A stretch of DNA of 16,080 nucleotides from Candidatus Shapirobacteria bacterium UBA1435 (GTDB lineage Bacteria > Patescibacteriota > Microgenomatia > UBA12405): the NCBI GenBank assembly GCA_002329385.1, contig DCTR01000022.1, positions 1 through 16,080 on the forward strand. Direction: 5' to 3'. Position 1 is the stretch's first letter. Every line of letters starts with the position of its first letter. Below are positions 1 to 15,597 of the stretch, piece after piece. Under the pieces are notes generated by a model that saw nothing but the letters and a program-made list of their open reading frames with translations, was not told the origin of the DNA and made no database searches. The position numbers and the translations under genes are program-made.

Positions 1-414
1 ACCGGTCATGCAAGACAGGGTTCAACAAGATCTCCCCAGTGGGCAGGCGGCGGCGTTGTATTCGCTCCCGTTCCCAGAGATTACACCATCCGTCTGAACA
101 AGAAGGAGAAGAGGGCTGCTCTTAAGTCCGCTCTTACCAGCCGGGTTCAGGCAGGCAAGTTCATCGTAGTGGACGAGCTGAAGTTTGATGAGATCAAGAC
201 CAAGAATTTCCAGACTGTTATGGATAACCTGAATGTGAAGAAGGGACTTGTCGTTTTGGCTGACAATGATGCAAACGTAGTTCTTTCTGCAAGAAATATC
301 CCTACAGTACAGACCACTTTAACAAATACCTTAAACGTATATGACGTTATGAAGGCAGGTACAGTAGTTCTTACAAAGGACGCTGTTTCAAAGATTGAGG
401 AGGTATACGCATAA
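1..414 (+). CDS. rplD: 50S ribosomal protein L4, C-terminal part (5' end outside window)
   Basis: Frame 1 is open from the first base to TAA at 412-414, giving 137 residues of L4, a large-subunit assembly protein that binds 23S rRNA and lines the exit tunnel. The fragment begins in the conserved extended-loop region ([18 protein letters not shown] at residues 1-18) and continues through VFAPVPRDY and the C-terminal Rossmann-like part, ending KIEEVYA. An internal ATG at 169 is not the start, because the conserved sequence continues upstream of it. The protein closely resembles L4 of Lachnospiraceae, and codons (AGA Arg, GCA Ala, GTA Val) fit Clostridia, unlike everything after ~1510. The stop overlaps the rplW start as TAATG, suggesting translational coupling. 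Identification is very sure; the taxonomic reading is an inference from remembered family sequences. Confidence 0.96.
397..403 (+). promoter_or_regulatory. Shine-Dalgarno site for rplW
   Basis: GAGGAGG lies 10 nt before the rplW ATG at 414, inside the last codons of rplD. It is a strong SD of the type common in Clostridia, and it contrasts with the nearly SD-free genes after the rplB junction. Confidence 0.75.
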
Positions 415-713
415 TGGCTGACATTAAATACTATGACGTAATCCTCAAACCGGTTATTACTGAAAAGAGTATGGCTGGTATGGGTGAGAAGAAATATACT
501 TTCCTGGTTCATCCGGATGCCAACAAGTCTCAGATTAAGGAAGCTGTTGAAAAGATGTTCGAAGGAACCAAAGTAGCAAAGGTTAACACCCAGAACTATG
601 ACGGCAAGAACAAGAGACGTGGTATGACAGTCGGCAAGACTGCCAAGACCAAAAAGGCAATCGTTCAGCTCACCGCAGACAGCAAGGACATCGAGATTTT
701 TGCAGGTCTGTAA
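414..713 (+). CDS. rplW: 50S ribosomal protein L23
   Basis: This 99-residue protein is L23, which sits at the peptide exit tunnel and is the docking site for trigger factor and SRP. The family pattern is clear: [15 protein letters not shown] at 6-20, [20 protein letters not shown] around 27-46, then the basic loop [21 protein letters not shown]. Length is normal. The start is fixed by the GAGGAGG SD and by the TAATG overlap with rplD. It belongs to the Clostridia-like part of the window by protein sequence and codon use. A 79-nt gap with a small hairpin separates it from rplB. Confidence 0.97.
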
Positions 714-743
714 AGAGCAAAAAGAAGTAAACGGTTAATGTAT

Positions 744-761
744 GCAGCATATGAATGCTGC
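744..761 (+). other. Small RNA hairpin in the rplW-rplB gap
   Basis: GCAGCAT (744-750), loop ATGA, then ATGCTGC (755-761) form a perfect 7-bp stem. No U-tract follows, so it is not an intrinsic terminator. It ends 16 nt before the rplB SD. It may be an RNA processing or stability element, or chance; its function is unknown. Confidence 0.5.
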
Positions 762-777
762 GCAAATAATCACAAGC

Positions 778-784
778 AAAGGAG
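778..784 (+). promoter_or_regulatory. Shine-Dalgarno site deciding the rplB start
   Basis: AAAGGAG, 8 nt before the ATG at 793, selects MGIKTY as the start of L2. The in-frame ATGs at 742 and 751 fall in the hairpin region and precede no L2-like sequence. Confidence 0.85.
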
Positions 785-792
785 ATATAACA

Positions 793-1617
793 ATGGGAAT
801 TAAGACATACAACCCATATACACCTTCCAGAAGAAATATGACCGGTTCAGATTTCTCTGAGATTACAAAGACAACTCCTGAGAAATCCCTTTGCGTATCC
901 TTAGCAAAGAACGCAGGTCGTAATAATCAGGGTAAGATCACGGTAAGACACCGTGGCGGCGGTTCCAGAAGGAAATACAGAATCATCGATTTTAAGAGAA
1001 ATAAGGATGGCATTCCTGCTACTGTAATCGGTATCGAATACGATCCTAACAGAACAGCAAACATCGCACTCATCTGCTATGAAGATGGCGAGAAGGCTTA
1101 CATCATTGCTCCCGAAGGTCTGACCGACGGCATGAAAGTAATGAACGGTGAGCATGCAGAAGTAAGAGTAGGCAACTGCCTGCCTTTATCTGAGATTCCT
1201 GTTGGTACTCAGGTACACAACATTGAATTATATCCTGGCAAGGGCGGCCAGCTGGTTCGCTCCGCAGGTAACAGCGCACAGCTGATGGCTAAGGAAGGAA
1301 AATATGCAACACTTCGTCTTCCCTCCGGCGAAATGAGAATGGTTCCTCTTGTATGCAGAGCAACCGTAGGTGTTGTAGGCAATGTTGATCACAGCCTTGT
1401 CAATATCGGTAAAGCAGGACGTAAGCGTCACATGGGAATCAGACCTACTGTCCGCGGTTCTGTCATGAACCCCAACGACCATCCCCACGGTGGTGGTGAA
1501 GGCCGGAGCTCTATCGGCATGAACCCCAAGACCAAGTGGGGCCGTCCGGCTATGGGCAAAAAAACCCGCGCCCGCAAAAAGTCCTCAAACAGATTAATTA
1601 TTAAAAGAAGAAAATAA
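793..1617 (+). CDS. rplB: 50S ribosomal protein L2, apparently chimeric (Clostridia-like body, CPR-like C-terminus)
   Basis: L2 is a primary 23S rRNA-binding protein needed for subunit joining and the peptidyl-transferase centre. The 274-residue frame starts [20 protein letters not shown], as in Lachnospiraceae, and keeps that character to about residue 217. The invariant stretch [17 protein letters not shown], with the conserved functional histidines (H230, H232), spans residues 222-238. After residue 238 the sequence becomes [20 protein letters not shown] and ends LIIKRRK, unlike Clostridia and similar to CPR L2 tails. Codon choice changes at the same place from AGA/GCA/GTA to CGC/GCC/GTC. 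The frame is kept, so the product looks whole, but I consider it a fusion of two orthologues. The stop at 1615-1617 is directly followed by the S19 ATG. The start was chosen from the SD at 778-784. Confidence 0.93.
1441..1506. other. Probable chimeric junction between two genomes inside rplB
   Basis: Left of this interval, proteins, codons and SD sites look like Clostridia. To the right they look like CPR/Microgenomates. The interval encodes the most conserved segment of L2 ([22 protein letters not shown]), so the exact crossover cannot be placed by eye. An assembly artefact is the simplest reading; real homologous recombination is the alternative. Confidence 0.75.
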
Positions 1618-1896
1618 ATGTCCCGCAGTTCGAAAAAAGGACCATATATCGACAAGAATTTGGGAAAAAAGATCGCTGCTCAAAAAGGCGATAGCACCCC
1701 GATCAAAACTTATGCCCGTAATTCCCAAGTTGCCCCTGAATTTGTTGGTCATAACCTTTCTATCTACAACGGCAAAAAATTTATTAATGTTTATGTCACC
1801 GAAGACATGGTCGGCCATCGGGTGGGTGAGTTTGCTCCTACTCGGACGTTCAAAGGCCACGGCCGCGTCGTTAAGCGTGTGATTGAAAAAACCTGA
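1618..1896 (+). CDS. rpsS: 30S ribosomal protein S19
   Basis: S19 is a small-subunit head protein that works with S13 near the A site and forms an intersubunit bridge. The 92-residue product has the family signature throughout: [12 protein letters not shown] at the start, [23 protein letters not shown] in the middle, and [18 protein letters not shown] near the end. Length matches the family. The ATG follows the rplB stop with no gap and no SD, typical of the following genes. It is the first gene lying wholly in the CPR-like part. Confidence 0.97.
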
Positions 1897-1897
1897 C

Positions 1898-2311
1898 ATG
1901 GCCAAGTCGACTACCGTTTTACCATCACCAACTCCTGCCCCCGTCCAGGAATTAGCTTCCGCTACTTCCAAAGTGGCTAAACACCTGAATAAAAATGTCA
2001 AAATTTCCCCGCGAAAACTAAGGATTTTGGCTAACGAAATCAAAAGGTTGCCACCGGTCGAAGCCGCTACCCGTCTTAAATTTACCAACACCAAAGCTTC
2101 ACGTATTCTTCAAAAGGCGATTAAAACCGTCATCGCCGATGCCAAAAACAACTATCAACTCAATCCCGACAAATTGGTTTTTGATTCCATCCTCGTTGGC
2201 GATGGTCTTAAAATTAAAAGATTGGACAAGTCTCACGGTTCTCGTTTTGCCCGTGGTTTGATCCAAAAACGCCATAGTCGTCTTACCATTACTGTTTCAG
2301 AGAATAAATAA
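1898..2311 (+). CDS. rplV: 50S ribosomal protein L22 with low-complexity N-terminal extension
   Basis: L22 contacts all 23S rRNA domains and its beta-hairpin lines the exit tunnel. The core begins near residue 28 (KHLNKNVKISPRKLRILANEIK) and includes NTKASRILQKAIKTVIADAKNN and the tunnel loop to the SRLTITVSE end. The first ~27 residues (MAKSTTVLPSPTPAPVQELA and onward) are rich in S, T, P and A and are not part of the usual L22 fold, so the protein is longer (137 residues) than typical L22 (~110). I start at ATG 1898, one base after the S19 stop; an in-frame ATG at 1883 would overlap S19 and adds nothing recognisable. No SD is visible. Confidence 0.93.
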   Translation: MAKSTTVLPSPTPAPVQELASATSKVAKHLNKNVKISPRKLRILANEIKRLPPVEAATRLKFTNTKASRILQKAIKTVIADAKNNYQLNPDKLVFDSILVGDGLKIKRLDKSHGSRFARGLIQKRHSRLTITVSENK

Positions 2312-2314
2312 CCT

Positions 2315-2959
2315 ATGGGCCAAAAAATAAATCCAATCGCCTTTAGGCTGGAAACTACCAAAAAAAGTCCGGAGTGGCAGTCCTCATGGTTTGCCTCACC
2401 AGGTAAATATAAAGAGCTATTACTTGAAGACAAAAAGATCCGTGACTATCTCCAAAAACGTCTATACTCGGCGGGGATTATCTCCATCCGCATTGAAAGA
2501 TCAGCCAAAAAATTAAAAATTATCCTTAGTGTCAGCCGTCCGGGTTTAGTTATCGGTCGGGGAGGCAAGGAATTGGAAAGCATTAAATCCGAAATTACTA
2601 AATTGGTCAAAACGAAATCTTCCGGCAAACTGAACATCGACATCCAGGTCGAAGAGTTCAAATACAGCGACCTTTCTGCCAAACTTGTCGCCGAAAAGAT
2701 TGCTTATCAGCTTACGAAAAGGTTGCCCTACCGTCGGGTTGTCCTCTCTGCCATGGAGAAGTCGATGGCTTCCGGCGCCAAAGGAATTAAGATCATCCTA
2801 GGCGGCAGGATCAACGGCGCCGAAATCAGTCGTCGGGAAAAATTTTCCCAAGGCACCATTCCTCTTAGCACCATCAAGTCTATCGTTGATTATTACCAAT
2901 GTCCTGCTCTTACCCGTTCCGGATACATCGGGGTTAAAGTTTATCTTTGTCTAGGCTAA
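2315..2959 (+). CDS. rpsC: 30S ribosomal protein S3
   Basis: S3 sits at the mRNA entry channel of the 30S subunit and contributes to helicase activity. The 214-residue product starts with the canonical [12 protein letters not shown] and contains a type II KH domain with the IGRGG loop at residues 80-84. It also carries the C-terminal signature, including [20 protein letters not shown] and [14 protein letters not shown], and ends in [12 protein letters not shown]. The family usually reads GVKVWI at that last motif. It lacks the longer charged tail of many S3 proteins. Three nt separate it from rplV and there is no SD. Identification is certain. Confidence 0.97.
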
Positions 2960-2969
2960 ACTAACCGCT

Positions 2970-3371
2970 ATGCTTCAACCAAGCCGCACAAAATATCGCA
3001 AAGCATTTAGAGGAAGGATGGGTGGATTTTCAAAGGGTTCATCTGTCGCTTTTGGCGAATACGGCCTAAAGGCGCTTCAGGCCTCCTGGGTCACTGCCAA
3101 CCAGATCGAGGCCGCCAGAAAAGCCATCGCCCATGCCACCAAACGGAATGGCCGGATGTGGGTTCGTCTTTTTCCGGATAAACCTTTTACCGAAAAAGGT
3201 GCCGTTACTATGGGTGCTGGCAAGGGTGACGTCAAAGGTTACGTTTGCGTTGTTCGGCCCGGCAGAGTTATGTTTGAAGTCTCCGGTGTTTCGGAGCAGT
3301 TGGCCAACGAAGCTCTCCGGCTGGCAGCAGCCAAGCTCCCTGTTGTTAGTAAGGTAGTTAAAAGGCAATAA
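2970..3371 (+). CDS. rplP: 50S ribosomal protein L16
   Basis: L16 organises the A-site region of the 50S subunit and helps position tRNA. The 133-residue protein starts [19 protein letters not shown] and carries [30 protein letters not shown] sequence around 28-53. It then has [15 protein letters not shown] and a variant of the glycine-rich loop ([18 protein letters not shown], where most bacteria have a GKGKG...WVAVVKPG form). The end, [11 protein letters not shown], is standard. Length is normal. It lies 10 nt after rpsC with no SD. Confidence 0.97.
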
Positions 3372-3384
3372 ACTTCTAGATATT

Positions 3385-3606
3385 ATGAAAAAAACTGATA
3401 AAATTGCCTACAGGCAAAAAGAGGTAGCGCAACTGCGCACAATTCTGGCCGATCTTCGGCGAAAGCTGGTCGAAACCAGGGCCAAGCTCCACACTGGCAA
3501 TCTGAAAGACACCTCCGTTATTAAAAAAATCAGAGCTGAAATCACCATGGTTTTAACTTTGATTACCGAAAATGACAAACAAAAAACTTCAACCATCTCA
3601 AAGTAA
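3385..3606 (+). CDS. rpmC: 50S ribosomal protein L29
   Basis: L29 is a two-helix protein at the exit-tunnel rim that forms part of the trigger-factor/SRP docking area with L23. The 73-residue product is helical and basic, with VAQLRTILADLRRKLVETRAKLHTGNLKD-type sequence around residues 14-42 and the second helix VIKKIRAEITMVLTLI following. It is slightly longer than common L29 (~65) because its last residues are encoded in a 35-nt overlap with the next gene, rpsQ, in another frame. Position between L16 and S17 confirms the call. Confidence 0.9.
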   Translation: MKKTDKIAYRQKEVAQLRTILADLRRKLVETRAKLHTGNLKDTSVIKKIRAEITMVLTLITENDKQKTSTISK

Positions 3607-3838
3607 AGGAAAAACCTTTATCGGTCTTGTCGTCTCCGACAAAATGCAAAACACCATTGTTGTTGCCATGGATCATCAGTTTCTTCACCCGAAATACCGC
3701 AAGACCGTCACCCGCACCAAAAAAATCTACGCCGACAACAACCTCAAGGCTAAGGTTGGCGATACCGTCAAAGTCAGGGAGACACGTCCCCTAAGCAAAC
3801 TCAAAAGATTTATAACTTTAGAGATCGTCAAAAACTAG
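3572..3838 (+). CDS. rpsQ: 30S ribosomal protein S17
   Basis: S17 is an OB-fold primary 16S rRNA-binding protein. The 88-residue product carries the family core [20 protein letters not shown], then [37 protein letters not shown] and a short end. The ATG at 3572 lies inside rpmC, giving a 35-nt overlap. The next in-frame ATG (MQNTIVV) would remove the conserved first strand, so the overlapping start is favoured. No SD is seen, so translation may be coupled to rpmC. Confidence 0.95.
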
Positions 3839-3839
3839 T

Positions 3840-4208
3840 ATGGTCCAGCTGCGAAGTATTATCAAGCCTGCCGACAATTGTGGTGCCAGACTGATTCAGG
3901 TAGTTCACGTCTATCGTGGTTCTTTTCACAAAAAAGCCACCATCGGCGATATCGTTGTCGGTGTCGTCAGGGATGCCATCCCCAATGGCCTGGTCAAAAA
4001 GAAAGAAAAAGTCAGGGTTGTTATTGTCCGGACCAAAAAAGAAATTGGTCGCACCGATGGCTCCTATATCCGTTTCAGCGAAAATGCCGGGGTAATCATC
4101 GATACCCAGAATAATCCCCGCGGCACCAGGATTTTTGGGCCGATCGCCAGGGAAATTAAGGATTTGGGCTTTAACAAAATCGTCTCGATGGCTAAGGAGG
4201 TATATTAA
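3840..4208 (+). CDS. rplN: 50S ribosomal protein L14
   Basis: L14 is one of the most conserved 50S proteins, a beta-barrel at the subunit interface that interacts with L19 and the silencing factor RsfS. The 122-residue product matches along its length: [69 protein letters not shown] and [13 protein letters not shown]. Length is standard. It starts one base after the S17 stop. Its final codons hold the SD for rplX. Confidence 0.98.
4194..4200 (+). promoter_or_regulatory. Shine-Dalgarno site for rplX (rare in this cluster)
   Basis: AAGGAGG lies 9 nt before the rplX ATG and is embedded in the end of rplN. It is the only clear SD among the ribosomal genes after the rplB junction, and it sets the L24 start at 4210 rather than the upstream in-frame ATG at 4135. 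Confidence 0.8.
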
Positions 4209-4209
4209 A

Positions 4210-4536
4210 ATGAAAATAATTATCGGCGATAAGGTCCAGATCTTAATCGGTAAAGATAAAGGCCGTTCGGGCGAGGTCATCGGGGTTTCTCCCAAGACCA
4301 AAAAAGTGCTGGTTAAGGGTCTAAATTTGTATCACCGTCACCTTAAGCCAGTCCAGGGCAGAAAGGGTGGCATTGTTGACAAAGAAAGAGAAATTGATCT
4401 ATCTAAAGTCTCTTTTATCTGTCCAAGCTGTCAAAAGATTAGCCGTGTTGGCTATCATCTCGACGCCTCCGGTCAGAAAATCCGTTTCTGCAAAAAATGC
4501 TCAACCGAAATTATGCCTGTTAAGCCCAAAAAATAA
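4210..4536 (+). CDS. rplX: 50S ribosomal protein L24, zinc-ribbon form
   Basis: L24 initiates 50S assembly by binding the 5' domain of 23S rRNA. The 108-residue product opens with a KOW motif (MKIIIGDKVQILIGKDKGRS) and continues with VLVKGLNLYHRHLKP. The C-terminal half carries two CxxC pairs (C71/C74 in FICPSCQ and C94/C97 in FCKKC), which probably bind zinc as in many bacterial L24 proteins. The start at 4210 is chosen because of the AAGGAGG SD and because residues upstream of it overlap rplN and do not resemble L24. Confidence 0.95.
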   Translation: MKIIIGDKVQILIGKDKGRSGEVIGVSPKTKKVLVKGLNLYHRHLKPVQGRKGGIVDKEREIDLSKVSFICPSCQKISRVGYHLDASGQKIRFCKKCSTEIMPVKPKK

Positions 4537-4538
4537 CT

Positions 4539-5069
4539 ATGTTACGTCAAAATTACCAAACCATTGTCAGGGATTACTTTAGTCAGCTTAAAGGCCGCAA
4601 CCCCCTATCTCTCCCCAGATTAGCCAAGGTCGTGATCAATTATCGCGTCCCGGAAGGTCGTGAGAGTCAGGAAAGTCTGACGGCCGCCCAAACAGAAATT
4701 ATGGCCATCACCGGCCAAAAGCCTGTCCTCACCCGTTCCCGGTTGGCGATTGCCTCTTTTAAGGTCAGGAAAGGCGATCCCTTGGCCTACAAGGTCACTC
4801 TTCGTGGTGGACGGATGTATGATTTTATTGAAAAACTTTTTAATCTTGTGCTTCCCCGTCTTCGTGATTTTAAGGGTATGTCTGCCAGTGCCTTCGATGA
4901 TGCCGGTAACTACAATCTCGTTATCAAAGATCAAACCTATTTTCCCGAGATAGACCTTGACAAGATTACCAAAATCCGTTCAGTCCAGGTGACCTTAAAT
5001 ATTACTGCCTCTTCAAAAGATGAGGCAAAAATGTTATTATCCGCCCTAGGTTTTCCCTTTGCTAAATAA
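4539..5069 (+). CDS. rplE: 50S ribosomal protein L5
   Basis: L5 binds 5S rRNA and contacts P-site tRNA in the central protuberance. The 176-residue protein has the expected order: N-terminal helix with the RDYF motif, PRLAKVVINYRV, ITGQKPVLTRSRLAIASFKVRKG, VTLRGGRMYDFIEKLFNLVLPRLRDF split across residues 85-110, and NLVIKDQTYFPEIDLDKI. The end, SKDEAKMLLSALGFPF, is also typical. Length is normal. It starts 2 nt after rplX, with no SD. A 35-nt AT-rich gap follows it, the longest inside the spc part. Confidence 0.96.
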   Translation: MLRQNYQTIVRDYFSQLKGRNPLSLPRLAKVVINYRVPEGRESQESLTAAQTEIMAITGQKPVLTRSRLAIASFKVRKGDPLAYKVTLRGGRMYDFIEKLFNLVLPRLRDFKGMSASAFDDAGNYNLVIKDQTYFPEIDLDKITKIRSVQVTLNITASSKDEAKMLLSALGFPFAK

Positions 5070-5104
5070 AATTAAAAAATTGCATATTGTAAATCGTAAT
5101 CAAC

Positions 5105-5290
5105 ATGGCCAATAAAGCAAAAATCGTTCGGGAAAAAAAACAACTCAAATATAAAGTTCGCTATCATAACCGTTGTCAATTATGTGGTCGCCCCCGCGGC
5201 TATATCAGAATTTTTGGCCTTTGTCGACTCTGTTTTCGCAAACTCGCCCATGCCGGCATGTTGCCCGGAGTTAAAAAATCTACCTGGTAA
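5105..5290 (+). CDS. rpsN: 30S ribosomal protein S14, zinc-binding short type
   Basis: S14 is a late-assembling protein of the 30S head. At 61 residues it is the short, zinc-binding form, with CQLCG (C24, C27) and CRLCF (C40, C43) making a four-cysteine site. The conserved [15 protein letters not shown] and the C-terminal [11 protein letters not shown] confirm the family. The ATG at 5105 follows an AT-rich 35-nt gap with no clear promoter or SD. The stop is 2 nt before rpsH. Confidence 0.97.
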
Positions 5291-5292
5291 AC

Positions 5293-5685
5293 ATGATCGC
5301 CTCACTCTCAATCGACTATTTGGTTAGACTCAAAAACGCCTCCCTGGCTGGTTCCCCTTCTATCGTCTCTCCCTACTCCAAATTTTGTTTGGCAATTGCC
5401 CAAATACTGAAAAAAAATAACTTCATTGCTGATTTTCGGGTAATCGAAGGCAAATCTTTTAAACAACTTGAAACTATTCTTGCCTATGATCAGGATCAGC
5501 CAAAAATCCGTCAGGTCGAGATTATCTCAAAGCCCAGTCGCCACCTTTATCACAAGGCCGCTTCGCTTCCCTGGGGCACCAACCGCGACTCATTAATTAT
5601 TGTCTCCACCTCTTCCGGTCTCATGTCTCAAAAAGAGGCCAACAATAAAAAAATAGGTGGGGAGATTATTGCTCAAATTTCATAA
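5293..5685 (+). CDS. rpsH: 30S ribosomal protein S8
   Basis: S8 is a primary binder of the 16S central domain and, in many bacteria, the spc operon repressor. The 130-residue protein has the family pattern in somewhat divergent form: DYLVRLKNASLAG near the start, PYSKFCLAIAQILKKNNFI, and ISKPSRHLYH. The C-terminal STSSGLMSQKEANNKKIGGE corresponds to the common STSKGVMTDREAR-xxxxGGE motif. Whether it regulates this cluster cannot be read from the sequence. Confidence 0.95.
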   Translation: MIASLSIDYLVRLKNASLAGSPSIVSPYSKFCLAIAQILKKNNFIADFRVIEGKSFKQLETILAYDQDQPKIRQVEIISKPSRHLYHKAASLPWGTNRDSLIIVSTSSGLMSQKEANNKKIGGEIIAQIS

Positions 5686-5690
5686 CCGCT

Positions 5691-6230
5691 ATGTCGCGCA
5701 TTGGCCGTCTGCCTATTTCTATCCCCGATGGTGTTACCGTTACTGTTGAAGCCTCGCAGGTGGTTGTTACTGGCCCAAAAGGCTCACTGAAACTTGCCAT
5801 TCCTTCCGCCATCAAGGTTGAAGTCCAAGATGGCCAGGTGATTGTTTCCTGCTTGTCCGAAACCAAGCAAAATCGCGCCAAACATGGTTCTATTCGCGCC
5901 ATCATCAACAACATGATTCGCGGCACCGTTGACCCCTGGAAAAAAGAGCTCGAAATTCGCGGCACTGGCTACAAAGCTTCGGTCAATGGCAACAAACTGA
6001 TCGTCAGTGCCGGTTATATCCACCCTGTCGAGATGGTCGCCCCCGAAGGTGTTCAGTTTTCCGTAAATCAGGATACCAACATTACTGTTATTGGTTGCGA
6101 CAAGGTTAAAGTCGGTCAGGTTGCCAGCAATATTCGAAAAATCCGTAAACCCGAACCTTATAAAGGCAAGGGCATCCGTTACGTTGGTGAATTTATCAAA
6201 CTTAAAGCTGGCAAGACCGCCAAAGCATAA
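5691..6230 (+). CDS. rplF: 50S ribosomal protein L6
   Basis: L6 lies near the sarcin-ricin loop and the factor-binding site. The 179-residue product starts MSRIGRLPISIPDGVTV and has two related alpha/beta domains. The first includes VVVTGPKGSLKL; the second includes ELEIRGTGYKASVNGNKLIV. It ends with the signature IRKPEPYKGKGIRYVGE and a lysine-rich tail. Length and position between S8 and L18 are standard. Five nt separate it from rpsH, with no SD. Confidence 0.98.
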   Translation: MSRIGRLPISIPDGVTVTVEASQVVVTGPKGSLKLAIPSAIKVEVQDGQVIVSCLSETKQNRAKHGSIRAIINNMIRGTVDPWKKELEIRGTGYKASVNGNKLIVSAGYIHPVEMVAPEGVQFSVNQDTNITVIGCDKVKVGQVASNIRKIRKPEPYKGKGIRYVGEFIKLKAGKTAKA

Positions 6231-6232
6231 AC

Positions 6233-6577
6233 ATGATCAAACATTCATCCACCCAAAGGCGGCTTCTCCGTGTCAGAAAAAAGCTTCAGGTCAACCTTGG
6301 CCTGCCCAGACTTTCTGTTTTCCGGAGCAATCAACATCTTTGGGCCCAGGTTATCGACGACAAACATGGCAAGACCCTTGCTTCTGCCAACACCAAAACC
6401 CTCAAAGACGCCAAAGGAACTAAATCAGAGAAAGCCTATCTTTTAGGCAAAGAAATTGCTAAAATTGCTCTGTCTTTAAACATTAAAAGAGTTCGCTTCG
6501 ACCGTGGCCTTTCCCAATACCACGGGCGTGTCCAAAAACTGGCCGAAGGTGCCAGAAGCGAAGGATTGACCTTCTAA
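6233..6577 (+). CDS. rplR: 50S ribosomal protein L18
   Basis: L18 binds 5S rRNA with L5 and fixes it to the 50S subunit. The 114-residue product shows the basic N-terminus RRLLRVRKKLQ, then LPRLSVFRSNQHLWAQVIDD, the alanine-rich GKTLASANT segment, and the end RVRFDRGLSQYHGRVQKLAEGARSEGL, split here as a continuous run near residues 86-112. The family usually has FDRGGYLYHGRV there. Length is normal, and it lies 2 nt after rplF. Confidence 0.96.
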   Translation: MIKHSSTQRRLLRVRKKLQVNLGLPRLSVFRSNQHLWAQVIDDKHGKTLASANTKTLKDAKGTKSEKAYLLGKEIAKIALSLNIKRVRFDRGLSQYHGRVQKLAEGARSEGLTF

Positions 6578-6578
6578 T

Positions 6579-7094
6579 ATGGACGATCACACCCCCCGAC
6601 AAAACAATCCCAATAACAGTCGGCCTCCCCACTTTCGGCCCGAAAGAGCAGAAAGTGAATTTGCCGATAAAGTAGTTGAAATCAAACGTGTTTCCAAAAA
6701 AACCAAGGGCGGCAATCAAATATCCTTTACTGCCCTGGTCGTTTCTGGTGACAAAAAATCACGGGTAGGTGTTGGTCTCGGTAAAGCCAAAAGTGTTGCC
6801 GACGCTATTCAGAAAGCTATCCAAAAGGCTCGTAAATCGATGATAAACGTGCCGATTGTCGATGGCACCATTCCTGTCTCGGTCAAGCTAAAATTTAAGG
6901 GTGCCTTGGTTCTCATCCGTCCCGGCAAGTCCGGAAGTGGTCTTATTGCCGGCGGTCCCGTCCGTTCAGTGGTCGAATTGGCCGGCATCAAGGACCTGGC
7001 CAGCAAAATTATCGGTTCTCGCAATAAGTCGGTTAATGTTTGGGCCACTCTTAAGGCTCTGACCCAAATTGGCCACCAATACCGGTCCAAATAG
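6579..7094 (+). CDS. rpsE: 30S ribosomal protein S5
   Basis: S5 contributes to decoding accuracy and the mRNA entry site. The 171-residue product has a polar N-terminal tail of about 28 residues (MDDHTPRQNNPNNSRPPHF and onward). The conserved core follows: VVEIKRVSKKTKGG, ISFTALVVSGDKKSRVGVGL, GKAKSVADAIQKAI, VPIVDGTIP and the glycine-rich RPGKSGSGLIAGGPVRSVVE. Its stop is only 3 nt before rplO. The rpmD (L30) gene normally found here is missing, as is usual in CPR bacteria. Confidence 0.97.
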   Translation: MDDHTPRQNNPNNSRPPHFRPERAESEFADKVVEIKRVSKKTKGGNQISFTALVVSGDKKSRVGVGLGKAKSVADAIQKAIQKARKSMINVPIVDGTIPVSVKLKFKGALVLIRPGKSGSGLIAGGPVRSVVELAGIKDLASKIIGSRNKSVNVWATLKALTQIGHQYRSK

Positions 7095-7097
7095 TCT

Positions 7098-7547
7098 ATG
7101 GAGATCCTATCCAAACTTACCAAGATTACATCCAAAAAAGCCAAAAGAGTTGGCCGTGGTTACGGCTCTGGTGCTGGCGGACACACCACCGGCAAAGGTG
7201 CCAAAGGTGACAAAATCCGTGGCAAAACCAAATTAACCTTTGATGGCACCAAAATAAAAAAATCCTGGATCAAACGCCTACCCTACCTTAGAGGCAAGCA
7301 CCTGACAATCGCCTATCGCCGCCATCTGAAATTTGACCTCGGCCAAATCAGTCAATGGTTTAAAGACGGAGAAGTGGTTACTCCTAAATTATTAGTCGAA
7401 AAGGCCAATGTCCCTGTTAGACTAAGCCGCCGGCCAATCAAAATTTTAGCCAAAGGCAAACTCGATAAAAAAGTCGATTTTGAAGGTTTGAGTTTCTCCC
7501 GGACAGCCAGCAAAATGGTTATCGCTGCCGGTGGTAATATTAAGTAA
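7098..7547 (+). CDS. rplO: 50S ribosomal protein L15
   Basis: L15 is a late 50S assembly protein with a long basic N-terminal arm. The 149-residue product shows the glycine/lysine-rich arm [20 protein letters not shown] at residues 17-36, then LPYLRGKH (the family's LPKRGF-like region), and the C-terminal globular domain with [21 protein letters not shown]. Its TAA overlaps the secY ATG as TAATG, implying coupling to secY. Length is standard. Confidence 0.95.
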
Positions 7548-8827
7548 TGAATCGGATATCCCAGGCCTTAAAAATCTTTATTGAGGCTCTAAATACCCCT
7601 GTCTTAAGAAAAAAAATTCTCTTTACCCTCGGCGTACTTGTTACCTTTCGTCTCATTGCCCATGTTCCCGTTCCCGGGGTAAATAGCCAGCTTCTCCGCC
7701 AGTTTTTTGCTCAAAACCAACTTCTTTCCCTTTTGGATATTTTCTCCGGCGGCACTCTGGCTAATTTTTCTGTTGCCGCTCTTGGCCTGACTCCTTACAT
7801 CAACGCTTCGGTAATGATGCAGCTTTTAACTATGGTCGTTCCCCAGTTGGAAGAACTAAATAAAGAAGGGGAATATGGCCGGGCAAAAATTAACCAATAT
7901 ATCAGGATTGCCACTATTCCCATCGCCGTAGTCCAATCTGTCGGTATGTATAGCTTGCTTCGTTCCCAACAGATCATCGCCAATCTCTCGCCGCTTACCT
8001 TGGTAGCCCTGGTGCTTAGCATGGTTGCTGGCACTATGATTATGGTTTTTTTGGGAGAGTTAATCAACCAGTTTGGCGTGGGCAACGGCACATCTATGAT
8101 AATTTTTGCTGGCATTGTCGGTCGTTTACCTATCAGCATTTATCAAACCCTTTCCATCACTGATTTTTCCAATCCGCAAAACCTTGCCAGTATGGTCGTT
8201 TTTGCTGCTATCGCCTTCGCCATGATCTTGGGCATTGTCATGGTTGAGGAGGCGGTACTTCGTGTCCCTATCAATTATGCCAAAAGGGCGCAGTCGACTT
8301 ATTTGCCAATTAAGGTTGATACTGCTGGTGTCATGCCAATAATTTTTGCCGTTTCTTTAGCCACCATGCCTTCCTTGGCCGGCCAGTTTCTTGGTCGCGT
8401 TTCCAGTCCGTTTGTCTCCTCCTTTGGTCGCTGGTTGGTTAGTTTTTTCGGCACCGATGGTATTCCCTACATCATCTTTTATTTTCTTCTTGTCCTGGGT
8501 TTTACTTATTTCTACACTTCTGTCATCTTTAAGCCCCACGACATTGCCGAAGAATTACGCAAATCTGGTGGTTTTATCCCTGGCATCCGTCCTGGCATCT
8601 CCACTGAAAAACGGCTTAGCTACCTTATCAATCGTGTTTTAGTTATTGGTGCTGTTTTTTTAGGACTGATCGCTATTGCCCCGCTGATCGTTCAAAAAGT
8701 TACCAACGTTTCCACCCTCACTATTGGCGGCACTAGTGTCCTAATCGTTGTCTCGGTGGTAATCGAGTTGACCAGAAAAATCGAAAACGTCGTCCAAATG
8801 CATAATTACGATAAACTAACTTATTAA
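7547..8827 (+). CDS. secY: Protein translocase channel subunit SecY
   Basis: SecY is the membrane channel of the Sec translocon, which exports and inserts proteins with SecA, SecE and SecG. The 426-residue product is strongly hydrophobic, with alternating hydrophobic segments consistent with the ten helices of the family. Family motifs seen include [12 protein letters not shown] near residues 35-46, a plug region [20 protein letters not shown], and [13 protein letters not shown]. Others are [17 protein letters not shown], the [22 protein letters not shown] region, and [17 protein letters not shown] in the cytosolic loop that engages SecA. Length is typical. It overlaps rplO by one base and is followed 11 nt later by adk. 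Confidence 0.98.
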
Positions 8828-8838
8828 TTACTAAACCT

Positions 8839-9423
8839 ATGTCTCTCAATCTTTTCATCATCGGTCCCTCTGGTTGTGGTAAATCAACCCAGGCCAAATT
8901 GATCGCTCAAAAATACAACCTCAAACATTTCTCCATGGGCCAGCTTTTCCGCGACGAAATCGCCGCTGGCTCGCAAATCGGCACCCAGGTCAAATCTTAC
9001 CTGGATCAGGGTGTTCCAGTCCCAGACCAAACCACTTGTGATCTTTTGGCCGGACACTTGCAACAAATTGGCAACCAGAATTTTATCGTTGACGGCTTTC
9101 CTCGGCTGCTTGGTCAGGGCAAATTTATCGACGACTATTTAGCCGCCTCCGGCCACCCCGCTTCGCTGGTTATTCACCTGAAGGTTGACTTTCTGGAAAT
9201 AATCAAAAGACGCCAAAAAATGGGTCAGGATTTCCAGGAGAAAGACCGCACCGACAACACCCCCGAAGCCATCGCCAATCGCCAAAAAGTGCTTTACGAA
9301 AACAACATTGCCCCTATCCTTGATTATTATCGCCAGAAAAACCAACTTTTCGAAGTTGACGGCAATCGGCCGATCGAGCCGATCTTTGCTGATATTGCCC
9401 AAACAATCGATAAACTAATATAA
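8839..9423 (+). CDS. adk: Adenylate kinase
   Basis: Adenylate kinase converts ATP + AMP to 2 ADP in the cytosol. The 194-residue protein has a full P-loop GPSGCGKST (residues 9-17, catalytic K15). AMP-site arginines are in SMGQLFRDE (R38) and DGFPR (R89). A short LID without zinc cysteines contains RR (124-125) and RTDNTPEAI (R137), followed by R148 and the IAPILDYY helix. This is the short-LID form, so it is smaller than E. coli Adk (214). Position after secY is the classical one. No SD is seen in the 11-nt gap. All catalytic residues I can place are present, so I consider it active. Confidence 0.95.
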   Translation: MSLNLFIIGPSGCGKSTQAKLIAQKYNLKHFSMGQLFRDEIAAGSQIGTQVKSYLDQGVPVPDQTTCDLLAGHLQQIGNQNFIVDGFPRLLGQGKFIDDYLAASGHPASLVIHLKVDFLEIIKRRQKMGQDFQEKDRTDNTPEAIANRQKVLYENNIAPILDYYRQKNQLFEVDGNRPIEPIFADIAQTIDKLI

Positions 9424-9424
9424 A
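9419..9424 (+). promoter_or_regulatory. Possible weak promoter -10 before the adenylate-kinase-like gene
   Basis: TATAAA (9419-9424) lies 18 nt after TTGCCC (9395-9400). Transcription would begin about 7 nt before the ATG at 9438. The region is AT-rich gene-end sequence, so this may be chance. Confidence 0.22.
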
Positions 9425-9437
9425 TACTATAGATCAA

Positions 9438-10076
9438 ATGTCGTTAAATCTGTTTATTGTTGGTCCCTCTGGAGGCGGTGTTACCCAGCAAGCTACCCTA
9501 ATTGCTACCAAATACGGCCTGGCCAATATATCTATGGGACAATTGCTTCGTGACCAGATTTCCATGGGCACAGAGCTTGGCGTTAGGGCAAAACTATTTA
9601 TCGATCAGGGCAGATGGGTTCCCGACGAAATCACCTTTTCCGTCCTAAAAGCCGCCCTTAGAAAAATCAATAATCAAAATTTCATTCTTGACGGCTACCC
9701 CCGCGCTATTAATCAGGGACCCTTGGTCGAAGAATACCTTTCTGATTTTAACCAGTCTGTTGATGCCCTTATCCACCTCAATATCGATTTTGCCGAAATC
9801 GCCAACCGCCGCGCCCTTAATGAAGCCCAGGGTAAAAAGTTCCATCTCGAAACCCGTACCGACGACACTCCCCAAAGTATTGCCCGGCAGTATCAGTCAT
9901 ACCGTCAGAATATCGCTCCGATTCTCAACTATTTTCGCCAGAAGTCAAAGCTGTTTGATGTTGACGCCAATCGCTCCATTGAAAACATTTTTTCCGATAT
10001 CTGTCAATATATCGATCAGCTTATATCCTCAAAACCTCCAAGCGCCGACCTGTCGTCTGCCATGGAGAAACTTTAA
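9438..10076 (+). CDS. Adenylate-kinase paralogue with degenerate P-loop (possible pseudoenzyme)
   Basis: This 212-residue protein aligns with the preceding Adk over its whole length: MSLNLFIVGPSGGG, SMGQLLRDQ (R38), DGYPRAINQG (R89), NRRALNEAQ, RTDDTPQSIA (R140) and NIAPILNYFRQKSKLFDVD. The P-loop reads GPSGGGVTQ where its neighbour has GPSGCGKST, so the essential lysine is valine (V15). After SIA it is one residue shorter than its neighbour, shifting the final LID arginine (R150). The AMP-binding arginines are kept, and it has an extra polar C-terminal tail of about 20 residues. The reading frame is intact, so it is not a simple pseudogene. I infer an old tandem duplication; an AMP/nucleotide sensor or a partner of the active kinase are possible roles, without direct evidence. 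It occupies the place where map usually lies. Confidence 0.85.
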   Translation: MSLNLFIVGPSGGGVTQQATLIATKYGLANISMGQLLRDQISMGTELGVRAKLFIDQGRWVPDEITFSVLKAALRKINNQNFILDGYPRAINQGPLVEEYLSDFNQSVDALIHLNIDFAEIANRRALNEAQGKKFHLETRTDDTPQSIARQYQSYRQNIAPILNYFRQKSKLFDVDANRSIENIFSDICQYIDQLISSKPPSADLSSAMEKL

Positions 10077-10102
10077 CCATTCATCATCTACTCTCGTAAA
10101 AT

Positions 10103-10309
10103 ATGCCCAATGAAGCCCAAGTAAAAGGCGTCGTTACCGAAGTTCTCCCCAATACTCTTTTTCGTGTCAAACTCGAAAATGATAAAGAAATTATTGCCTA
10201 TCTGGCCGGAAGATTGAGGATGTATCACATTCGCATTATGGCAGGCGATACGGTTTCCCTAGTCTTAAGCCCCGACGGTAATAAAGGCCGTATCGTCTAT
10301 CGGGGATAG
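10103..10309 (+). CDS. infA: Translation initiation factor IF-1
   Basis: IF-1 is an S1/OB-fold protein that occupies the 30S A site during initiation and assists IF-2 and IF-3. The 68-residue product has the family sequence [19 protein letters not shown], then [20 protein letters not shown] and the end GRIVYRG. The family usually has AHISGKMRMNYIRI in the middle. It lies 26 nt after the adenylate-kinase-like gene and 60 nt before rpmJ, from which it is separated by a promoter. No SD precedes it. Confidence 0.96.
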
Positions 10310-10326
10310 TCTATACAATTTAGTCT

Positions 10327-10355
10327 TTGATATTGGGCCAACTTTAGGTTACAAT
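10327..10355 (+). promoter_or_regulatory. Promoter for the alpha part of the cluster (rpmJ onward)
   Basis: TTGATA (10327-10332) and TACAAT (10350-10355) are separated by exactly 17 nt, each matching the sigma-70 consensus at 5 of 6 bases. The expected start of transcription, about 10362, leaves an 8-nt leader before the rpmJ ATG with no SD. A perfect 7-nt inverted repeat, GATATTG (10329-10335) and CAATATC (10352-10358), overlaps both boxes and could be an operator. It sits in the longest gap between the IF-1 and L36 genes. Confidence 0.65.
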
Positions 10356-10369
10356 ATCCAAGTCTCAAC

Positions 10370-10483
10370 ATGAAGGTCAAATCCAGCGTCAAAAAACGAT
10401 GTAAAAATTGTAAAATAGTGATTCGCAAGGGTCGCCGTCGTGTTATTTGTTCTACCAAAAAACATACCCAAAAACAGGGATAA
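10370..10483 (+). CDS. rpmJ: 50S ribosomal protein L36, zinc-binding form
   Basis: This 37-residue protein is L36, a small zinc-ribbon protein of the 50S subunit. It reads [20 protein letters not shown] followed by [17 protein letters not shown]. The C-x2-C-x12-C-x4-H zinc site (C11, C14, C27, H32) is intact, so this is the zinc-dependent form. Length and sequence match the family, and its position between infA and rpsM is canonical. It follows the promoter at 10327-10355 and has no SD. Confidence 0.96.
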
Positions 10484-10488
10484 CCAAT

Positions 10489-10908
10489 ATGAGGATCTCC
10501 GGAGTCGAAATACCAGACAACGAAAGGGCTGAAATTGGCCTGACCCGTTTTTATGGTATTGGTCGGACAAATGTCAAAAAGCTCGTCAAATCAGCCAAAA
10601 TCAACCCCGACACCCGCATAAAAGATCTCTCTCGTGACGATATCGGTAACCTGATGAAGGCTTTGGAAAATTTTACTGTCGAGGGTGATTTAAAAAAAGA
10701 AATTCGTGAAAATATCGACCGTTTAAAGGCAATTAGGGCTTACCGGGGCATTCGCCACATCGTCGGTTTGCCGGTCAGAGGCCAGAGGACCAAATCAAAC
10801 TCCCGCACCCGTAAAGGTAGAAAAAAGACGGTTGGTTCGCTTACCAAAGAAGCTTGGGCAAAAATCGAAACCCAGCAAAAAGCCGCAACTGTAGCCAAAA
10901 ATTCCTAA
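10489..10908 (+). CDS. rpsM: 30S ribosomal protein S13
   Basis: S13 is in the 30S head, contacts P-site tRNA and forms intersubunit bridges. The 139-residue product starts MRISGVEIPDNERAEIGLT and includes FYGIGRTNVKKL, the IRAYRGIRHIVGLPVRGQRT signature (residues ~82-101) and SRTRKGRKKTVG. A C-terminal extension of about 20 residues follows (KEAWAKIETQQKAATVAKNS), making it longer than typical S13 (~120). The start at 10489 is chosen over the in-frame ATG at 10447, which lies inside rpmJ. Confidence 0.96.
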   Translation: MRISGVEIPDNERAEIGLTRFYGIGRTNVKKLVKSAKINPDTRIKDLSRDDIGNLMKALENFTVEGDLKKEIRENIDRLKAIRAYRGIRHIVGLPVRGQRTKSNSRTRKGRKKTVGSLTKEAWAKIETQQKAATVAKNS

Positions 10909-10914
10909 AATTCT

Positions 10915-11322
10915 ATGGCCAACACTACCACTACCCCTACTACTTCTGCCCCAAAGAAAAAACAATATCAGAGTTTTGCTGAAGGGCGCCTTTATGTTAG
11001 TTCCACTTTCAACAATACAATTGTTACTATCACTGACCCCAGGGGCAATGTTCTTTCCTGGTCAAGTTCGGGAAATGTTGGTTTTAAAGGTGCGCGCAAG
11101 TCTACTCCCTATGCTGCCACCACCGCCATCGAAAAAGTCCTCGATGAGGCCAGAAAATATGGAATGAAAAAATTATCCGTTTATCTGAAGGGTCCGGGCG
11201 TCGGCCGTGATGCCGCTCTCCGTCATCTTCGCACCAAAAGGGATTTTGAGGTGGAAATGATTGCCGACATTACTCCAGTTCCCCACAATGGCCCCCGGCC
11301 TCCCAAACAAAGAAGCATCTAA
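10915..11322 (+). CDS. rpsK: 30S ribosomal protein S11
   Basis: S11 is on the 30S platform near the mRNA exit and the Shine-Dalgarno helix. The 135-residue product has a threonine/proline-rich N-terminus (MANTTTTPTTSAPKKK), then GRLYVSSTFNNTIVTITDPRG-type sequence from residue ~24. GNVGFKGARKSTPYAATTA, VYLKGPGVGRDAALR and the end TPVPHNGPRPPKQR follow. The HNG site, isomerised to isoaspartate in some bacteria, is present. The gap to rpsM is 6 nt with no SD. Confidence 0.97.
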   Translation: MANTTTTPTTSAPKKKQYQSFAEGRLYVSSTFNNTIVTITDPRGNVLSWSSSGNVGFKGARKSTPYAATTAIEKVLDEARKYGMKKLSVYLKGPGVGRDAALRHLRTKRDFEVEMIADITPVPHNGPRPPKQRSI

Positions 11323-11328
11323 ATCCTT

Positions 11329-11964
11329 ATGAGTAGAATTACTTCAGATTCCAAATGCCGGCTGTGTCGGGCGGAAGGCCAAAAGCTCTACCTAAAGTCT
11401 TCCCGCTGTTTTTCCGCCAAATGTCCTCTCGAAAAGAAAGGCGCTGTTCCTCCTGGTATGCACGGCATCAAAAGGGCCAAAAAACCCACAGATTACGGTC
11501 TTCAATTGCGGGCTAAGCAGAAAGCCAAAAGAATTTACGGCGTCAACGAAACGCAGTTTAAAAATATCTTTGATCGAGCCAAGAAAGTCAAAGGTCAGGT
11601 TGGCCACAATCTCCTCGTCCTTCTCGAAAGGCGGCTTGATAGCGTCTTGCACTCTTCCGGCCTCTCTTCCTCCAGAAGTCACGCCAAACAGTTAATCAGC
11701 CATGGTAATGTTCTCGTCAACGGCCAACCGGTTAGTATCTGCTCCTACACCGTCAAGATCGGTGACGAAATTAGCCTGAATCCGGTGGCAATCGACAAAG
11801 TCAAAGATATTTTTCGTGCCAACGACAAAGACCTCAAAATTCCCGGTTGGTTTAACGTCGACCTCAAAAAATTCAGCCTAAAAATCACCAAAATGCCATC
11901 AGTCGACGATCTCCCCACTGCCGACATCGATATCAATTTAATAGTTGAATATTATTCCAGATAA
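11329..11964 (+). CDS. rpsD: 30S ribosomal protein S4, zinc-containing form
   Basis: S4 nucleates 16S 5'-domain assembly and often acts as the alpha-operon repressor. The 211-residue product has an N-terminal four-cysteine cluster (C10, C13, C27, C32: CRLC and CFSAKC), so it is the zinc form. It continues with PPGMHG, YGLQLRAKQKAKRIYGV, and an S4 RNA-binding domain (LERRLDSVLHSSGLSSSRSH through AKQLISHGNVLVNG). The C-terminal LIVEYYSR is standard. Fifteen nt separate it from rpoA. Whether it represses the promoter before rpmJ cannot be read here. Confidence 0.97.
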   Translation: MSRITSDSKCRLCRAEGQKLYLKSSRCFSAKCPLEKKGAVPPGMHGIKRAKKPTDYGLQLRAKQKAKRIYGVNETQFKNIFDRAKKVKGQVGHNLLVLLERRLDSVLHSSGLSSSRSHAKQLISHGNVLVNGQPVSICSYTVKIGDEISLNPVAIDKVKDIFRANDKDLKIPGWFNVDLKKFSLKITKMPSVDDLPTADIDINLIVEYYSR

Positions 11965-11979
11965 AAATTAATAACAAAT

Positions 11980-12897
11980 ATGATTGATACCAGCAAATTT
12001 CACTTAAAAACCATTAAGGAGTCAGACAACTACGGCAAGTTTGAACTCTCTCCTCTATTTGGCGGCCTTGGTCACACCGTCGGTAACAGTCTTCGCCGGG
12101 TTCTTTTAATCACCGTCCCCGGGGCGGCCATCACCCGCATTAAGGTCGATGGTGCTAGCCATCTTTTTACCACTTTGCCTGGAGTCAAGGAAGATTTGGT
12201 TGAAGTTTCACTTAATCTCAAAAAAATTAAATTTAATTATTCCAAAAACGAGCCAGTCGTTCTCAATCTTTCCAAAAAGGGTCCGGGGCCAGTCACTGCC
12301 GCCGACATCGAGGATTCTGAAGTCTGTCGTGTGTCAAATCCGGAGCAACATATCGCCACTCTCTCTGATGCCAAATCATCCCTCAAGATGGAGTTAACCG
12401 TCGAAAGGGGAGTGGGCTACACTCTCGCTCGTGAGCAAAAAACTGATGTTGTTGGCGAGATAATCCTCGACGCTTCTTTTACTCCTATCACCAAGGTTAA
12501 CTATGCCGTCGAACCGACACGGCTTGGCAAAAAATCAAATTATGACAAGCTTGTTTTGGAGCTTTGGACTGACGGCTCTATCGAACCGGTTAAAGCCCTC
12601 AAGTTGGCCGCCAAAGACCTGGTCAATTGTTACTCCCAGATCTTTGACCCGAAAGAATATGAAGACGAGGTTGTTACTCTTTCCGCTCTGCCTATTTCAC
12701 AAGGTTATGATATTTCCGTTGAAGAAATCGAACTTCCTCTAAGAGTGACCAATGCTCTCAAAAAAGCCGGATACACCACCATCGACACCTTGATCAAGGC
12801 CGGCCGGGCAGAAGTCAGCAAGGCCAAAAACGTCGGTGAAAAATCGCTTAAAATTATTGATGGTTGGCTCAAGGAAAAAGGATTTATTTGGAAATAG
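11980..12897 (+). CDS. rpoA: DNA-directed RNA polymerase subunit alpha
   Basis: The alpha dimer is the scaffold of RNA polymerase and its C-terminal domain reads UP elements and activators. The 305-residue protein has the N-terminal dimerisation domain with FELSPLFGGLGHTVGNSLRRVLL (residues ~20-42) and GAAITRIKVDGASHLF-type sequence, and LGKKSNYDKLVLELWTDG later. A linker near 220-240 leads to the C-terminal helix-hairpin-helix domain (ELPLRVTNALKKAGYTTIDT). Residues equivalent to E. coli R265, N268 and K298 (RVTN, GEKSL) are present, so DNA contact by alpha-CTD is probably retained. It is flanked by rpsD and rplQ, as usual. Confidence 0.98.
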   Translation: MIDTSKFHLKTIKESDNYGKFELSPLFGGLGHTVGNSLRRVLLITVPGAAITRIKVDGASHLFTTLPGVKEDLVEVSLNLKKIKFNYSKNEPVVLNLSKKGPGPVTAADIEDSEVCRVSNPEQHIATLSDAKSSLKMELTVERGVGYTLAREQKTDVVGEIILDASFTPITKVNYAVEPTRLGKKSNYDKLVLELWTDGSIEPVKALKLAAKDLVNCYSQIFDPKEYEDEVVTLSALPISQGYDISVEEIELPLRVTNALKKAGYTTIDTLIKAGRAEVSKAKNVGEKSLKIIDGWLKEKGFIWK

Positions 12898-12903
12898 CGT
12901 TAT

Positions 12904-13395
12904 ATGAAACATCGTATCTTTGGGAAAAAACTAGGCAGAAACCATCATACGCGTCAGGCTCTCTTTCGAACGCAAATCAATAGCCTGTTTTTGCGTGGTT
13001 CAATCACCACCACCGCTGCCAAGGTCAAGGCCCTAACCCCTCTTGCTGAAAAAATCTGCACCAGGCTTGTTTCTCAAACCAACCTTGAGGCCTGCCGCTT
13101 GCTCTCCCGATATGTTCCAGACAGAAACCTAGCCCGTCGTCTTGTCGAATTCTATAAGAACTCCTTTAACGGCAGAAGTTCCAATTTTCTTAAGACCGCC
13201 AAAATCAAATTCCGCCAGGGAGACGATTCCTTAATGGTTAAACTTGCTTTTTATCAGGACGTCAAACCCCCGGTTGCTGTCAAGCCATCCAAAGCTGACG
13301 ACAAAACCAAGAATTCCCCAAAGACAGACAAGACTATCAAAAAACCATCTCCCGCCAAAGTCAAATCGACAGTTAAAAAGGAGACAACCAAATGA
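12904..13395 (+). CDS. rplQ: 50S ribosomal protein L17 with lysine-rich C-terminal tail
   Basis: L17 lies at the 50S exit-tunnel side. The core occupies residues 1 to ~115: MKHRIFGKKLGRNHHTRQAL, RGSITTTAAKVKALTPLAEK, then LARRLV and RQGDDSLMVKLAF (common bacterial form RxGDxAxMVxIEL). A tail of about 45 residues, made almost only of K, P, S, T, V and D, follows and is absent from short L17 proteins; it is probably disordered and may bind rRNA. The stop overlaps the next start (ATGA at 13392-13395), indicating coupling with rplM. Confidence 0.95.
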   Translation: MKHRIFGKKLGRNHHTRQALFRTQINSLFLRGSITTTAAKVKALTPLAEKICTRLVSQTNLEACRLLSRYVPDRNLARRLVEFYKNSFNGRSSNFLKTAKIKFRQGDDSLMVKLAFYQDVKPPVAVKPSKADDKTKNSPKTDKTIKKPSPAKVKSTVKKETTK

Positions 13396-13808
13396 ATTCC
13401 ACCACCCAACGAAAAGGAGAATGTCAAAATAGAAAATGGTTTTTAGTCGACCTTAATGGTCAGACCCTGGGTCGCGTTTCTACCCAAATCGCCGCTCTTC
13501 TCATGGGTAAAAATAATTCCGATTTCTCTTTTCATCGCGACGATGGCGCTTATGTGGTCGCTGTCAACGCCGCCTCCATTACTGTCAGTGGCAACAAGGC
13601 TAACGAAAAAGTCTATTATCACCATACTGGCTATCCCGGCGGTATTAAAGAATTGACCTATAAGGAAATGATGATCAGAGATCCGAAGAAGGTGATTATT
13701 CATAGCGTCTATGGCATGTTGCCCAAAAATAAACTCCGTGACCGCCGAATTTCCCGGTTAAAAGTTTTTCTAGATTCCCAGCATCCTTACGCTGATAAAC
13801 TTAAATAA
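13392..13808 (+). CDS. rplM: 50S ribosomal protein L13
   Basis: L13 is an early 50S assembly protein. The 138-residue product contains RKWFLVDLNGQTLGRVSTQI, the FHRDDGAYVVAVNAASITVSG block, the hallmark KVYYHHTGYPGGIK, and GMLPKNKLRDRRISRLKVF followed by a short end. Start and length are consistent with the family, and the ATG overlaps the rplQ stop by 4 nt. Linking L13-S9 directly behind L17 is common in Gram-positive and CPR genomes. Confidence 0.97.
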   Translation: MNSTTQRKGECQNRKWFLVDLNGQTLGRVSTQIAALLMGKNNSDFSFHRDDGAYVVAVNAASITVSGNKANEKVYYHHTGYPGGIKELTYKEMMIRDPKKVIIHSVYGMLPKNKLRDRRISRLKVFLDSQHPYADKLK

Positions 13809-13813
13809 AATTT

Positions 13814-14218: not shown

Positions 14219-14227
14219 TCGGGTATT

Positions 14228-15156: not shown

Positions 15157-15261
15157 TATCCGGCCATCTGGCGCTTCGATTTCCAGGCAAAAACTAAGCC
15201 TTGGTTATCTTTTGGTGGAAAACGTCAAACCATGACCGCTGGGCCAACACTCCTTCGGGTT

Positions 15262-15270: not shown

Positions 15271-15285
15271 TACCTAAGTTAATCT

Positions 15286-15296: not shown

Positions 15297-15303
15297 GACT
15301 ATC

Positions 15304-15591: not shown

Positions 15592-15597
15592 TGGCCC

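Follow-up and report, generated by a model that had tools for sequence, protein, structure and literature searches.

Gene content of the window and its place in the genome

The window, that is, the whole stretch of 16,080 bases analysed here (positions 1-16080), is the first gap-free stretch of a 32,131-base scaffold (G000:C23), in which NN follows directly after position 16080. The genome to which this scaffold belongs (G000) comprises 799,308 bases in 48 contigs and is rated 94.3% complete with 0.09% contamination. On the forward strand, the window opens with the 3′ part of rplD for L4 (1-414; positions 54-188 of the model TIGR03953), truncated by the scaffold end, which is followed by a complete rplW for L23 (414-713), a spacer of 79 bases with an AGGAG ribosome-binding site (714-792), rplB for L2 (793-1617), rpsS (1618-1896), rplV, rpsC and rplP, and then by the rest of the S10/spc/alpha cluster and later genes up to 16080. 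NCBIfam models match L4, L23, L2, S19, S3 and L16 in the window, with L22 scoring under its curated cut-off, and the TIGR01171 model of L2 is matched along its length (427 bits). No N run occurs anywhere in the window. In the 72,214 bases of the scaffolds C1, C5, C10, C15 and C23 of this genome (L115-L119), 14 of the 15 N runs are exactly two bases long and one is of 11 bases; these runs are probably scaffold joins with a nominal gap, and those of two bases could partly be masking.

Farther along the window, Pfam models identify a tandem pair of adenylate kinase genes (8839-9423 and 9438-10076) that lies between secY and infA, with 102 of 193 aligned residues identical. The second has GPSGGGVTQQ where the first has GPSGCGKSTQ, and so is devoid of the ATP-binding loop lysine. 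One adenylate kinase match was found in 46 of the 56 genomes searched and two in seven; among these seven, only G000 and G055 have neighbouring adenylate kinases, rather than pieces of one gene or a match on another contig. Near the right end of the window, an 83-aa ORF with a weak match to EF-Tu domain 2, under the curated cut-off (15304-15555), adjoins the gene for a response-regulator receiver protein (15598-16056).

Origins of the two parts of rplB

The left part of the window is of the Lachnospiraceae type. The reference for this type consists of the best 80 of 589 genome loci encoding relatives of the whole L2, all titled as Lachnospiraceae or related Firmicutes. Positions 1-1440, spacers included, align with Lachnospiraceae loci in a single piece, at 81.6% over 1,443 columns (L006) and at 80.5% (L007); since 81.6% is the best DNA match, the Lachnospiraceae parent species is absent from the 80 loci. 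The product of rplB codons 1-229 (793-1479) shares 224/229 residues with a database protein (P0122) and 220/229 with a locus titled Acetatifactor (L008), compared with at most 129/229 for any aligned CPR row. A quick tree was built from the window, 9 database proteins, 29 CPR loci and 20 of the 80 loci (59 rows in all); in it, the L2 of the window falls into a set of 25 rows, 23 of which are Lachnospiraceae, with an SH-aLRT of 99. A single real lineage with an odd L2 was rejected as an explanation, since the body of the protein groups with Lachnospiraceae in this tree and the L2s of 29 related genomes group with CPR. In addition, rplW and rplB overlap or abut in the CPR relatives G007 and G011, in contrast to the spacer between them in the window.

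The right part is of the Microgenomates type of CPR, beginning with rplB codons 238-274 and the stop codon (1504-1617). The last 45 residues of L2 match a database protein, P0001, letter for letter (44/44 in the multiple alignment owing to a shifted gap), and the last 37 are found in no protein other than P0001 among the 288 listed and in none of 109 loci. From residue 230 on, L2 shares 39/44 residues with P0002 and up to 38/43-44 with CPR loci, against 32/45 with the best of 20 aligned Lachnospiraceae loci. At the DNA level, positions 1500-3400 match CPR genomes of the same family at 65-72% in the top 14 of 50 rows, and the assignment of the whole stretch from rpsS onward (1618-16080) to native CPR DNA rests on ORFs, profiles, DNA matches, codon use and the lack of N runs. 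When the database was searched with L2 residues 222-274, the top 11 matches were L2 proteins of 244-249 aa and lower-ranked matches reached 281 aa, some of them 68-77% identical; source names among the listed matches include Woesebacteria (P0028, P0082) and Shapirobacteria (P0037, P0061). P0001 itself is a 245-aa L2 with a CPR body, encoded on a 1,903-base contig, and the rows nearest to it along the tree are those of same-family CPR and P0028, the latter with the top body identity (71%). Because none of the 561 pairs among 34 CPR L2 proteins is identical over the first 44 residues from the HPHGGGEG motif on (one pair with 96% body identity differs by one residue), P0001 is probably the ordinary L2 of a very close relative.

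The position of the switch was narrowed by a per-base comparison with the 80 Lachnospiraceae-type loci and 28 CPR loci, one further CPR locus having been left out since its motif reads HAHGGGEG (L090); the Lachnospiraceae columns past about 1522, which are shifted by one codon, were excluded. Bases 1474, 1477 and 1478 match in 80/80 Lachnospiraceae-type loci and in fractions of 0.18, 0.00 and 0.04 of the CPR loci. Codons 230-237 (1480-1503) encode the same eight residues, HPHGGGEG, in both groups, with variable third positions, of which base 1494 leans to Lachnospiraceae (0.86 versus 0.36 for CPR). Bases 1504-1505 favour CPR (0.68 and 0.93 versus 0.14 and 0.35), and bases 1519-1521 do so more strongly (0.93-1.00 versus 0.01-0.05), although bases 1506 and 1515 lean to Lachnospiraceae, against the general pattern 3′ of the junction. 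This per-base support puts the switch between 1479 and 1519, and it most likely lies inside 1480-1504. The nearest relatives thus change sharply within one gap-free contig, as is expected of a metagenome chimera.

Base composition and codon use change at the same place. Positions 1-1440 score +0.18 and positions 1518-3000 score -0.15 in the log-ratio of tetranucleotides (Lachnospiraceae over CPR); the 111 CPR reference chunks have a maximum of -0.058 and the 556 Lachnospiraceae chunks a minimum of -0.021, most of these chunks being also part of the backgrounds and window 1-1440 lying outside them. Codon log-ratios amount to +76 bits for L4, +27 for L23, +54 for L2 residues 1-100 and +45 for residues 101-200, are small near the junction (+2.7 for 201-229 and -4.6 for 238-274), and amount to -35 for S19, -64 for L22, -84 for S3 and -44 for L16, these last four being themselves included in the CPR codon background. 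An AGGAG-type motif stands upstream of both starts left of the junction (rplW and rplB) and of 0/7 starts tested to its right. There is no GC step at the junction, though GC skew changes from positive to negative.

Most of this agrees with what had been claimed beforehand in a reading of the sequence alone (the sequence-only reading). It had assigned L4, L23 and about the first 217 residues of L2 to Lachnospiraceae; alignment, tree and codons uphold that origin, and the boundary has to be moved to residue 229. It had further regarded the C-terminal end of L2 and all later genes as CPR/Microgenomates, which the identity with P0001, the same-family DNA matches and the codon and tetranucleotide ratios bear out, and it had seen codon use, SD use and protein character change together at one place with the frame kept. 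Indeed, the codon log-ratio flips its sign there, AGGAG motifs go from 2/2 to 0/7, and a single ORF (793-1617) runs unbroken through the junction inside rplB. Of the comparisons it had proposed, that of tetranucleotides sets the two sides of the junction on opposite sides, and that of the two L2 halves yields different nearest relatives, P0122 and L008 (Lachnospiraceae) for the first and P0001 (CPR) for the second.

The missing native stretch and the nature of the join

Profile searches of G000 return one match each for L2_C, L2_N, L4 and L23, all in this window, and no match for L3 (rplC) in this 94%-complete genome; the corresponding searches for L2, L3, L4 and L23 matched 13 or 14 of 14 control genomes. 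The S10 gene (rpsJ) ends another scaffold, C15 (23,096 bases), where it is cut at profile position 70 of 98. Upstream of rpsJ on C15 lie the EF-Tu gene (tuf) and then a two-N run, at which tuf apparently lacks its final residues and rpsJ its start. By profile, the gene order in the two same-family genomes compared is tuf-rpsJ-rplC-rplD-rplW-rplB-rpsS in G007 and rpsJ-rplC-rplD-rplW-rplB in G011. From the single L4, L23 and L2, the lack of L3, the end of C15 in rpsJ and the order in these relatives, it follows that the native stretch is missing exactly at the foreign piece. The bin lacks the CPR sequence from the 3′ part of rpsJ through rplC, rplD and rplW to the 5′ part of rplB; the right-hand part of this stretch is taken up by the Lachnospiraceae piece. 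This piece forms the extreme left end of scaffold C23, and a second breakpoint back to CPR is not seen there. Native continuation that is absent, together with another contig that stops at the matching place, is what a metagenome chimera is expected to leave behind.

The start of the contig is therefore almost certainly a metagenome assembly chimera of Lachnospiraceae, Firmicutes of the gut type, and Microgenomates-type CPR, unrelated bacteria with tiny genomes, presumably joined through a shared k-mer. The assembler would have extended a Microgenomates-type CPR contig leftwards through rplB. Within the codons for HPHGGGEG, which hardly vary, it would have switched from the CPR path to that of an unrelated Lachnospiraceae species present in the sample, and continued along rplB, rplW and rplD until this path ended about 1.5 kb farther on. 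The bridge would be a k-mer common to both parents, and coverage that was low or uneven along the CPR path may have been the trigger. As the switch sits in homologous codons of one gene, the reading frame stays intact. Two other kinds of artefact were considered and rejected: a scaffolding error, as the window is without N, and a complete foreign contig placed in the bin, as the remainder of the same gap-free contig is CPR.

How readily such a bridge could form is indicated by the exact matches between the two groups. In pairs of one Lachnospiraceae and one CPR locus, the motif is overlapped by the longest exact match anywhere in the gene in 394/2320 cases, about 17%, where length alone would give roughly 5%. 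Exact runs around the motif reach at least 21 bases in 42/2320 pairs and at least 24 bases in 30, which makes a bridge of k-mer length between the phyla possible but not the rule. The whole 24-base junction word of the window occurs in none of the loci compared; its CCC codon (1483-1485) is found in 2/80 Lachnospiraceae-type and 4/28 CPR loci, and the window's best exact matches span 1462-1484 for the Lachnospiraceae-type loci (L020) and 1486-1502 for the CPR loci (L101 and L112).

The same sequence could in principle arise by recent inter-phylum homologous recombination, in which Lachnospiraceae DNA replaced CPR rplD, rplW and the 5′ part of rplB, with a crossover in the HPHGGGEG codons and a working hybrid L2 as the product. 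The intact frame, the fit of the hybrid to the L2 model along its length and the lack of any further copy of rplD, rplW or rplB in G000 would suit such an event. It would not account for the absence of an L3 match or for the end of C15 just where the missing stretch should start, and its one visible breakpoint adjoins the scaffold end, beyond which a left breakpoint could lie. Since the piece retains codon use of the Lachnospiraceae type, any real transfer would have to be recent. A product of recombination would be expected to turn up again in relatives or in assemblies made independently, but the hybrid does not recur in the genomes and listed proteins searched. An L2 match is present in 53/56 genomes searched, G000 included, and thus in 52/55 related genomes, three being without a match; the main matches in these 52 are 48-59% identical to the hybrid, with one 75-residue fragment at 68% (G020:C50), and no Firmicute-like L2 is among them, in a set that holds no other genome of the same genus. 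Three protein searches, covering 5.8 billion sequences and scoring about 8,000 each time, list no second protein with the same body and tail among their best 120 matches each; these matches represent 90%-identity clusters, so that a Lachnospiraceae cluster could hide a hybrid. Taken with these points, recombination is very improbable.

A chimeric molecule formed during amplification or library preparation, and not by the assembler, would yield an identical sequence, and genuine reads would then cross the junction. As a matter of general knowledge, a single chimeric molecule normally builds no contig of 1.5 kb unless it is amplified, and random ligation is not expected to fall in homologous codons with the frame kept; such a laboratory origin is extremely improbable. 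An assembly jump, as already proposed by the sequence-only reading, is favoured by the location of the piece at a scaffold end, the matching gap in the native operon, the lack of Firmicute-like L2 among the matches of relatives and the existence of P0001, and also by the eight L2 proteins described below.

Similar joins in published assemblies and possible ones in other L2 proteins

Chimeras of rplB have been described in gene-targeted assembly. The Xander study (PMC4526283) reports that in a defined community their share was 30% at k=30 and 0.3% at k=45, that two rplB contigs had a 5′ part from Bacteroides vulgatus and last 190 bases from an unknown organism, and that soil data were far less affected. 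According to the same study, bulk assemblers aim to prevent chimeras by breaking contigs off at forks in the path. A further paper again blames small k for chimeras (PMC5657035). The window resembles the Xander cases in the gene and in the joining of two parents through shared words, which in the window are presumed; those come from gene-targeted assembly of a defined community and soil (PMC4526283), whereas here the parents belong to different phyla and the join, in a genome bin, has been carried into a genome collection. A study of CPR and mock-community genomes (PMC8172020) finds chimeric joins in the mock community always at contig ends, which is also where the foreign sequence of the window lies. 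The mock chimeras given there are between Salmonella enterica and Escherichia coli (PMC8172020), whereas the parents of the window belong to separate phyla and are joined at a protein motif that does not vary. A non-exhaustive literature search found no published account of an L2 join between CPR and Firmicutes.

Since the join is most likely an assembly error and not gene exchange, it matters mainly as a warning on ribosomal genes in assembled genomes. Such an error passes the usual quality figures (94% complete, 0.09% contamination) because the foreign piece takes the place of single-copy genes instead of adding second copies. L2, L4 and L23 are frequently used in concatenated ribosomal protein trees, and joins of this kind therefore bring wrong letters into CPR phylogenies. 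Recombination, if true, would be remarkable for a core ribosomal gene; no evidence here points to it. The HPHGGGEG motif of L2 is worth routine screening.

Other L2 proteins may have been joined at the same motif. A tail was counted as foreign-looking when the best identity to the 80 loci was at least 0.90 for the body and below 0.75 for the tail; with each locus left out in turn, the lowest tail value among the 80 was 0.72, in a locus with a broken-looking tail (L041), and the next was 0.81. The test set held 168 listed matches (P0121-P0288), 11 of which could not be split and were dropped, P0001-P0120 being outside the test. By this measure, in which the window itself scores 0.96 for the body and 0.65 for the tail, a Lachnospiraceae body with a foreign-looking tail from HPHGGGEG on is found in 8/157 other Lachnospiraceae-like L2 proteins (P0125, P0137, P0141, P0149, P0156, P0159, P0199 and P0212). 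They are like the L2 of the window in being Lachnospiraceae-like up to the motif and unlike in the tail after it, but their tails differ from the CPR tail and they are known from protein sequences alone. Three of the eight are encoded on contigs of about 1 kb, and the longest contig has 8,160 bases; the tail of P0156 matched L2 of many PDB entries. These eight may be chimeras, a lead and not a proof, and some could be genuine proteins from lineages that the 80 reference loci do not cover. Their foreign tails fit HPHGGGEG as a common crossing point in assembly. Apart from them, one listed protein of 413 aa (P0121) is an L2 with its N-terminal part tandemly repeated, perhaps another assembly error.
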